Shown: positions 46,160 through 46,587 of the stretch, piece by piece
How positions within the stretch are numbered: position 1 is the first letter of the stretch
How the letters are laid out: each line of letters opens with the position of its first letter
Program-made: the position numbers and the translations under genes
From: an uncultured Mucilaginibacter sp.
GTDB taxonomy: Bacteria > Bacteroidota > Bacteroidia > Sphingobacteriales > Sphingobacteriaceae
Direction of reading: 5' to 3'
Length of the DNA: 64,000 bases
Assembly (NCBI GenBank): GCA_903864275.1
Contig: CAIPFE010000056.1
Coordinates: 62,001 to 126,000, forward strand
Notes under the pieces: generated by a model
Databases searched by the model: none
Told to the model about the DNA's origin: nothing
Seen by the model: only the letters and a program-made list of their open reading frames with translations

Positions 46160-46245
46160 GGTTTTAAGATTTTAAGGATTTATAATTTTTTTATGAATTT
46201 GTTATTTGAATGAACACAACGCGGATGCAGGTTACCTTTCGGGGA

Positions 46246-46283
46246 ACACGCATATTTTCAGGAAAACGAAAATTAAAACGTGT
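46246..46283 (-). other. Hairpin between leader peptide and metY
   Basis: On the message strand ACACG ... CGUGU (5 pairs) encloses AUUUUC ... GAAAAU (6 pairs). It follows the leader-peptide stop by about 7 bases. No U tract follows, so it does not look like a simple terminator. Confidence 0.5.
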
Positions 46284-46289
46284 CAAGGT

Positions 46290-46385
46290 TCAGCAGCAGC
46301 AACACATACAAATGCAATACGCAGGTGTTGTGCCTTTGCAGGCCTTGAAAATGTTTTGAAGAATGTTGTAAATCAGATTTTTCAT
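46290..46385 (-). CDS. Cysteine-rich leader peptide of the metY operon
   Basis: A 31-codon ORF starts at the ATG 46383-46385, 9 bases after the end of the SAM riboswitch. It begins MKNLIYNILQ and ends CICMCCCC directly before the stop. Seven of 31 residues are Cys, including four consecutive Cys codons (TGT TGC TGC TGC) just before TGA, plus a Met. This is the form of a leader peptide whose translation stalls when charged tRNA-Cys is scarce. The Cys codons overlap the 3' side of a possible CAACAC/GUGUUG helix. It is too short for most gene finders. That it acts by attenuation is inference; the coding potential and position are seen. Confidence 0.72.
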   Translation of the reverse strand: MKNLIYNILQNIFKACKGTTPAYCICMCCCC

Positions 46386-46394
46386 GGTTTGTTA

Positions 46395-46503
46395 ATTTAT
46401 ATTCCCCGGTGTTATTTGCCGGGACAGGAATTGGCACCTTCTCCAACTTTGAAGGGTTGCCAGCGGGTCATTGAGCCTGATCTCTCGCCGCTTCTTTATA
46501 AAT
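46395..46503 (-). ncRNA. SAM-I (S-box) riboswitch upstream of metY
   Basis: The reverse strand folds as a complete SAM-I aptamer. P1 is AUUUAUA with UAUAAAU. P2a is GCGG/CCGC. The kink-turn is formed by GA and AUGA. P2b is GAG/CUC with loop AUCAGG, whose CAGG can pair with CCUG later (pseudoknot). Then come GCAACC, the P3 hairpin CCUUC/GAAGG, GGUGCCAAUUCC, and P4 CCCGG/CCGGG. All core S-box elements are in order. It controls metY-metX-hom. High SAM is expected to lower expression; whether by termination or by blocking the leader ORF, which starts 9 bases after P1, is not visible. Confidence 0.93.
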
Positions 46504-46554
46504 CAAAACCTCTTTGAGGGGTAATGATCAAGGTATTGCTACCAAATTTTGTTT

Positions 46555-46587
46555 CAAAGATAAGGCGTTGAGGATGTATTCTCCAAA
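46555..46587 (-). promoter_or_regulatory. Promoter of the metY operon
   Basis: On the reverse strand TTTG (46584-46587) is followed after 21 bases by TATCTTTG (46555-46562), a full match to the Bacteroidota -33/-7 consensus TTTG / TAnnTTTG. Transcription would begin near 46548, about 45 bases before the riboswitch. Confidence 0.7.

Follow-up and report, generated by a model that had tools for sequence, protein, structure and literature searches.

A SAM-I riboswitch and a cysteine-rich leader ORF stand in series ahead of the methionine genes metY-metX-hom of an uncultured Mucilaginibacter sp., and this arrangement was confirmed as real and conserved, with both elements present in 112 of the 131 metY loci that carry SAM-I. 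The locus lies in a stretch of 64,000 nucleotides (contig CAIPFE010000056.1, positions 62,001 to 126,000; hereafter the window), where the order on the minus strand is promoter, SAM-I, leader ORF ending in CICMCCCC, and metY-metX-hom (Table 1). The parts, their order, frame, spacing and conservation, and the specificity for metY, are all directly observed. The layout suggests a two-input RNA regulator of metY-metX-hom, in which SAM-bound P1 would block the leader start and a shortage of Cys (or Met) would stall the leader ribosome, a reading drawn from comparison of sequences that we regard as fairly probable.

Arrangement and conservation of the metY leader

The main parts described by the first-pass annotation (promoter, SAM-I, ORF, hairpin and genes) were all recovered in place on the minus strand. 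The ORF does adjoin SAM-I, and the gap, previously given as 9 bases, was measured as 8 nt after the Rfam match. The aptamer matched RF00162 over model positions 1-108 of 108 with 78.4 bits against a gathering score of 44.4 (E 9.3e-17); at gathering scores, no Rfam match other than SAM-I was found in the window, and so no T-box match in the leader. P1 is present in the predicted fold, its 3' strand having a mean GC content of 9% over 131 loci, and the A-rich stretch ahead of the leader AUG is this very strand. Upstream of the aptamer lies TTTG-N21-TATCTTTG (46587-46555), which we take to be a fit to the Bacteroidota promoter consensus; of 123 metY loci, 77 have the pattern TTTG-N17..23-TAnnTTTG in the 150 nt preceding SAM-I, and none of the 123 has it on the opposite strand.

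Table 1. Features of the metY leader region and the genes that follow it (positions in the window)
Feature	Position	Strand	Basis or remark
Promoter: TTTG 46587-46584 and TATCTTTG 46562-46555	46555..46587	(-)	Sequence and Bacteroidota-type consensus
SAM-I riboswitch aptamer (predicted)	46394..46504	(-)	RF00162, 78.4 bits
P1 3' strand, AATATAAATT region	46402-46394	(-)	A/U only; directly ahead of the leader AUG
Leader ORF, ATG start, 31 codons, MKNLIYNILQNIFKACKGTTPAYCICMCCCC	46290..46385	(-)	Sequence, Cys rule, frame test
Candidate regulatory codons Cys-Ile-Cys-Met-Cys-Cys-Cys-Cys, then TGA stop	46293..46316	(-)	Sequence and tail composition
AUGUGUUG within the Met-Cys-Cys codons	46300..46307	(-)	Possible pairing with UGACACGU 46285-46278, 5' arm of hairpin 1
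Hairpin 1, ACACGU ... GCGUGU	46246..46283	(-)	Six-pair stem, kept in relatives
G-poor unstructured tract 5' of metY	46160..46214	(-)	Candidate Rho-loading or translation-initiation region
metY, O-acetylhomoserine sulfhydrylase family	44864..46159	(-)	TIGR01326, 672 bits, cut-off 495
metX, homoserine O-acetyltransferase	43597..44652	(-)	TIGR01392 best match, 353 bits, below cut-off 500
hom, homoserine dehydrogenase	42362..43597	(-)	NF004976, 318 bits, cut-off 205

Conservation was assessed in 159 metY upstream regions, comprising 80 from the best 80 of 581 matches, among which Mucilaginibacter provided the closest named metY relatives of the window, and a class sample of 79, with the window's own locus (L144) included. 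For one class search the best 23 of 35 places were used, L167-L173 and five places without loci being omitted (E above 1e-180). The SAM-I covariance model was built from 21 sequences of the genus, and L011 and L031, wrongly cut at contig ends, were left out of the aptamer alignment. A Cys leader was defined by rule as an ATG ORF of 12-80 codons with three or more Cys among its final 12 codons, located between SAM-I and metY, or within 600 nt where SAM-I is absent.

SAM-I was detected in 131 of the 159 regions (76/80 and, in the class sample, 55/79), the weakest match having an E of 2.5e-6, and a Cys leader followed it in 70 of these 76 and 42 of these 55, respectively; among loci devoid of SAM-I the rule was passed by 0/4 and, in the class sample, 9/24. 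Four further SAM-I loci (L086, L089, L147 and L156) have their leader past the 800 nt scanned, and another four (L101, L105, L106 and L181) are near misses with CMC-type ends. The remaining 11 of the 131 have neither a Cys leader nor a near miss, and in 10 of these a Cys-poor ORF starts 8-10 nt after SAM-I. By chance the rule was passed in 132 of 7950 shuffles (1.7%), and 4 of the 159 regions passed it on their opposite strand. SAM-I together with a leader occurs in 11 of the 24 families of the class sample and in 24 genera. L068 and L069 share one leader peptide. The association of the two elements in the class sample, with L147 and L156 counted as leaders and kinship ignored, amounts to 44/55 loci with SAM-I vs 9/24 without (Fisher p 0.0005).

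The leader ORF bears a clear coding signal. The window holds a single instance of four Cys codons followed by a stop, which none of 100 shuffles reproduced, and an ATG lies 2-16 nt after SAM-I in 123 of 127 SAM-I metY loci. Loss of the frame or of the Cys run in relatives that keep SAM-I had been named beforehand as speaking against such a leader; triple-Cys runs share the frame of this near ATG in 91 loci, vs 1 locus for each of the other two frames, and only the 11 loci mentioned above neither pass the Cys rule nor come near it. What emerges in 112 of 131 loci is a short ORF, conserved in frame, with Cys codons clustered ahead of its stop, by which leader peptides are recognised. Moreover, pairwise differences over the last six codons of 41 Mucilaginibacter-type leaders average 2.92 at third positions vs 1.59 and 1.36 at the other two. 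A scan of the window's own genome for Cys codons followed by a stop returned 59 places (27 forward, 32 reverse) vs 23 for the reversed pattern and was uninformative, most of the 30 places with loci being off-frame.

Across the last 12 codons of the 112 SAM-I leaders, Cys makes up 43.3% vs 1.8% in the ORF body, and Met, which the rule does not select for, 12.4% vs 1.1%. Since the peptide body varies freely among lineages and only its Cys/Met end and its position in the leader persist, the ORF appears to read sulfur amino acids, chiefly Cys and secondarily Met, and it is very likely, judging from codon content and frame, that it is translated and senses Cys. Cysteine had initially been proposed as the precursor signal. 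This reading is to be widened, Met codons being enriched beside the Cys codons; if MetY sulfhydrylates directly, methionine does not have to be made from cysteine.

Spacing between the aptamer and the leader start

In 107 of the 112 leaders the AUG follows SAM-I at a distance of 2-16 nt (mode 7), whereas the distance from the leader stop to metY ranges from 87 to 582 nt. Other SAM-I loci of the genus served as a control, the table covering SAM-I at 72 places out of at least about 155 and 72 of 73 sources, with L272 left out. All 19 of the 19 metY SAM-I loci in it have a near AUG and a Cys leader, and in the 53 SAM-I loci ahead of other genes the counts fall to 9 with an ATG at this spacing and 4 with a Cys leader. 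These four (L006, L009, L023 and L246) all stand ahead of TonB-receptor genes (Plug domain), and their leaders are much farther from the aptamer, at 96-349 nt.

The 3' strand of P1 thus falls in the initiation region of an ORF, as is characteristic of a translational SAM-I, and this ORF is the leader and not the gene. Barrick and Breaker 2007 (PMC2258182) describe SAM-I expression platforms whose ribosome binding site lies on the 3' strand of P1, and in the present leaders the P1 binding site would serve the leader ORF rather than the gene. The suggestion made from the window alone, that P1 sits close enough to the leader start for SAM to block leader translation, accords with the spacing in the relatives. 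Given this closeness, control of leader initiation is the natural reading, and from the conserved geometry we consider it likely that SAM gates the initiation of the leader.

The best-surviving alternative holds that the two sensors are independent, SAM-I acting via RNA decay or an unseen terminator of its own, with the Cys leader acting separately downstream, so that the short spacing would reflect compact packing. It draws on SAM-I elements of the genus that lie 71-166 nt ahead of leaderless genes (desulfurase-like, peroxiredoxin), where another output must exist; however, AUG spacing that is near-fixed in the metY loci and not in the other SAM-I loci, and the wide range of leader-to-metY distances by contrast, make independent sensors unlikely.

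Several further SAM-I and Cys-leader loci were recorded. In 15 loci (L004, L007, L013 and others) a cysteine-desulfurase-like gene of the class-V aminotransferases follows SAM-I at 71-109 nt without any leader ORF, and in 8 loci SAM-I lies ahead of peroxiredoxin genes. In L015, L019 and L020 a Cys leader (ending in RCYCCC, SCYCCC and LCYCCC) lies on the strand opposite to the SAM-I of the desulfurase-like gene; in the latter two loci it is followed by small proteins, apparently of the membrane. Cys-rich leader ORFs located 60-269 nt 5' of TonB-receptor (SusC-like) genes in the genus come in two settings, behind SAM-I in L006, L009, L023 and L246 (the last with two in series), and within the operon, behind a TlpA/AhpC-like gene, in L005, L012, L022 and L249. 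At L242:61-142 (+), in a genome of another family, lies the Cys leader MIITINNIHFDNFVLSHHECCYCCCR, whose ATG comes a few bases after a promoter-like box, TATATTTG, ahead of a peroxiredoxin-like gene. The window's own genome has three SAM-I elements, one of which (L002:1501-1688; G000:C50:53980-54167) is 188 nt long vs the usual length of about 110 and contains a repeat-like GACTT/AAGTC; similarly long matches were seen in G018, G045 and G059, among the matches listed.

Leader end, downstream RNA and the proposed mechanism

The 85 nt after the leader stop are more structured than shuffles, with a mean z of -1.81 and 79 of 112 leaders below -1, in comparison with values near zero for the ORF body (mean 0.04) and for the last 55 nt ahead of metY (mean 0.01). 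A hairpin had been noticed ahead of metY in the window, and its six-pair stem (hairpin 1) is kept in 41 Mucilaginibacter-type leaders, where 227 of 246 cells are paired vs no more than 163 of 246 when the 3' arm is shifted; covariation is modest, with few double changes. Leaders of the Mucilaginibacter type and of the Pedobacter type, whose sequences differ, both have hairpin 1 after the stop, often with a second hairpin behind it, which in the window has only two pairs and is not clear. In the Mucilaginibacter-type leaders RNAalifold recovered nothing beyond hairpin 1 and a small tail helix. As a separate observation by eye, the distant Cytophagales-like loci L066, L104 and L107 share a recurring post-leader hairpin with the similar loop GCC..GUGAC.GG.

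In folding models with a ribosome four codons ahead of the stop, hairpin 1 was kept (0.84 for 41 Mucilaginibacter-type and 0.73 for 22 Pedobacter-type leaders), and with the ribosome at the stop it was lost (0.36 and 0.13, respectively). In free RNA hairpin 1 is already favoured, with means of 0.77 and 0.71, so that a stall would alter it little. A helix of at least 7 pairs between the tail and the 5' arm of hairpin 1 can be drawn in 28 of 41 Mucilaginibacter-type leaders vs about 8 of 41 expected from shuffled arms, and such competing pairing is not evident in Pedobacter by inspection of sequences. The long-range helices named in the first-pass annotation fared differently from its hairpin: CAACAC of the CAACAC/GUGUUG helix occurs in the ORF body of 5 of 41 relatives, the window included, and GTTGTG of the alternative CACAAC/GUUGUG helix occurs in the matching place of 2 of 41, neither being conserved. 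Its idea of two sensors on one transcript is supported as regards the serial elements and, as a likely reading, control at the leader start, and not as regards these helices.

A hairpin with a U-tract terminator is lacking after 109 of the 112 leaders, and terminator-like sites number 0 in the window between 46100 and 46700, on which grounds a classical intrinsic-terminator attenuator was rejected. Sequestration of the metY start was rejected as well, given the unstructured last 55 nt. The tract ahead of metY contains, over 112 loci, 6.2% G and 19.9% C vs 12.3% and 18.5% in 291 background upstream stretches, which were drawn from the same loci and may include metY itself, and C reaches at least three times G in 56% of loci vs 19% of those stretches. 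Such a G-poor tract would suit Rho, but it would also make a good ribosome landing site.

Further indications come from metY loci without SAM-I, a set of 31 (28 of the 159 together with L241-L243) in which leader ORFs were picked manually from lists. Of the 31, 14 have leader ORFs rich in Cys and mostly in Met too, such as MNNKQHISVSQMHRMHHCMCMCCMCM, and eight of those 14 (L158, L160, L162, L165, L203, L206, L219 and L243) have two Met/Cys-rich ORFs in series. Met per 12 codons is 2.23 in the 22 ORFs of these 14 loci vs 1.46 in the 115 with SAM-I. The p value of this difference is 0.014 by ORF and 0.037 by locus, with kinship ignored and the SAM-less ORFs hand-chosen, and a greater frequency of Met in leaders without SAM-I is only suggestive. 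Tentatively, mixed Met and Cys codons, frequently spread over two successive leader ORFs, may replace the aptamer where SAM-I is absent, and SAM-I may gate the leader ribosome elsewhere, giving a series AND gate at translation of an ORF of 25-55 codons; aptamer and codon run would then be exchangeable in evolution.

According to the proposed mechanism, when SAM is plentiful the aptamer would hold the A/U-only P1, with its 3' strand just upstream of the AUG, and the leader would not be initiated, as the conserved geometry suggests. When SAM is low, the leader would be translated, and the codons suggest that the ribosome would slow or stall at Cys (and Met) if charged Cys-tRNA (or Met-tRNA) is scarce. 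In the third step, the weakest of the three, a ribosome held near the leader end would leave hairpin 1 free and cover the leader end, and transcription would read into metY; a ribosome that had never started (high SAM) or had finished (high Cys) would leave the RNA open, and transcription would stop early. Rho would be the most likely agent of this early stop, favoured because no U-tract terminator is present, and as the output step it is a guess to which we give somewhat less than even weight. On balance the evidence leans towards metY being ON only when SAM and Cys are both low.

The sign of the Cys response could also be opposite, a Cys shortage stalling the ribosome, lowering metY and sparing sulfide for cysteine, so that metY would be on at low SAM with sufficient Cys. 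The window's own genome contains a cysE-cysK-like pair, both members below curated cut-offs, which would compete with MetY for sulfide; by the rule used, no Cys leader was found upstream of its cysE. However, Met and Cys codons share the same run in the leaders without SAM-I, and low Met should switch metY on, since lowering a Met-synthesis gene under Met shortage would be senseless; a stall should therefore mean ON, and the opposite sign is improbable. More MetY at low Cys, as the favoured sign would have it, fits a route from homocysteine to cysteine by reverse transsulfuration, and also fits TIGR01326, by its name a family including cysteine synthases. That the small protein is itself functional (for example in metal or thiol binding) and merely encoded under SAM-I control would account for a conserved, translated-looking ORF with a Cys-rich end, but is very improbable in view of the freely variable body, of which only the Cys/Met end and the leader position persist, and of the tandem and unrelated versions ahead of other genes.

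Comparison with known systems

A full-text literature search, outside which most subscription papers and supplements lie, yielded no paper that describes a Cys leader placed in series with SAM-I, and none on Cys leaders in Bacteroidota. The Salmonella mgtA and mgtCBR leaders reportedly join leader ORFs to a second sensor in one 5' region and answer to Mg2+, ATP and proline; they resemble the metY leaders in that combination and differ in these signals and in having no SAM-I aptamer. In Flavobacterium psychrophilum, leader-peptide attenuation before unnamed amino-acid operons is mentioned in the available part of one report (PMC9723704).

Polycysteine leader ORFs of mycobacteria and other actinobacteria were predicted without terminators, and Rho was suggested, in the accessible text of Seliverstov et al. 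2005 (PMC1262725), and the work on Cys leaders of M. smegmatis (Canestrari et al. 2020) is called translation attenuation in a passage of PMC13236596. As far as these texts describe them, the actinobacterial leaders share with the present ones a short ORF, a Cys run near the stop, sulfur genes downstream and no conserved terminator hairpin; unlike them, the present leaders occur in Bacteroidia, before metY and behind SAM-I, with Met codons mixed in and with conserved hairpins after the stop. The uORFC-8-2 motif before cysS of Rhodobacterales, for which ribosome-mediated attenuation was proposed in 2021 (PMC8632094), is likewise a uORF with conserved Cys codons, whereas the portion of that paper available gives it two Cys codons, an intrinsic terminator with a U-run, no riboswitch and a different gene.

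Two systems approach the dual input from the side of SAM-I. The SAM-I of Xanthomonas campestris also binds uncharged initiator tRNA (PMC7270179). In the text available, its regulation of met genes, which is largely translational and takes in a further amino-acid signal, parallels what is proposed here, although that signal arrives as a tRNA that the expression platform binds, and a leader peptide is absent. The ubiG-type operon of Clostridium combines a Cys T-box with a SAM-I that acts with antisense RNA (PMC2258182); from the part of that source available, it too is one sulfur operon answering to Cys supply and SAM, as proposed here for metY, and unlike here its SAM-I lies on the antisense transcript and Cys is read by the T-box.

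If the proposed wiring is true, the target of the riboswitch would be the leader peptide itself, gating the ribosome that reads a second signal, and the fixed spacing sharpens the question of SAM acting on the leader rather than on metY. Meanwhile, the natural variants (SAM-I present or absent, a single leader ORF or two, Cys run lost) provide material on how a cell sums two signals on one RNA, and offer a route into attenuation in a phylum whose leaders here lack U-tract terminators. SAM-I riboswitches and Cys leaders are each known, and as far as the literature searched shows, it is their wiring in series and its spread that are new.
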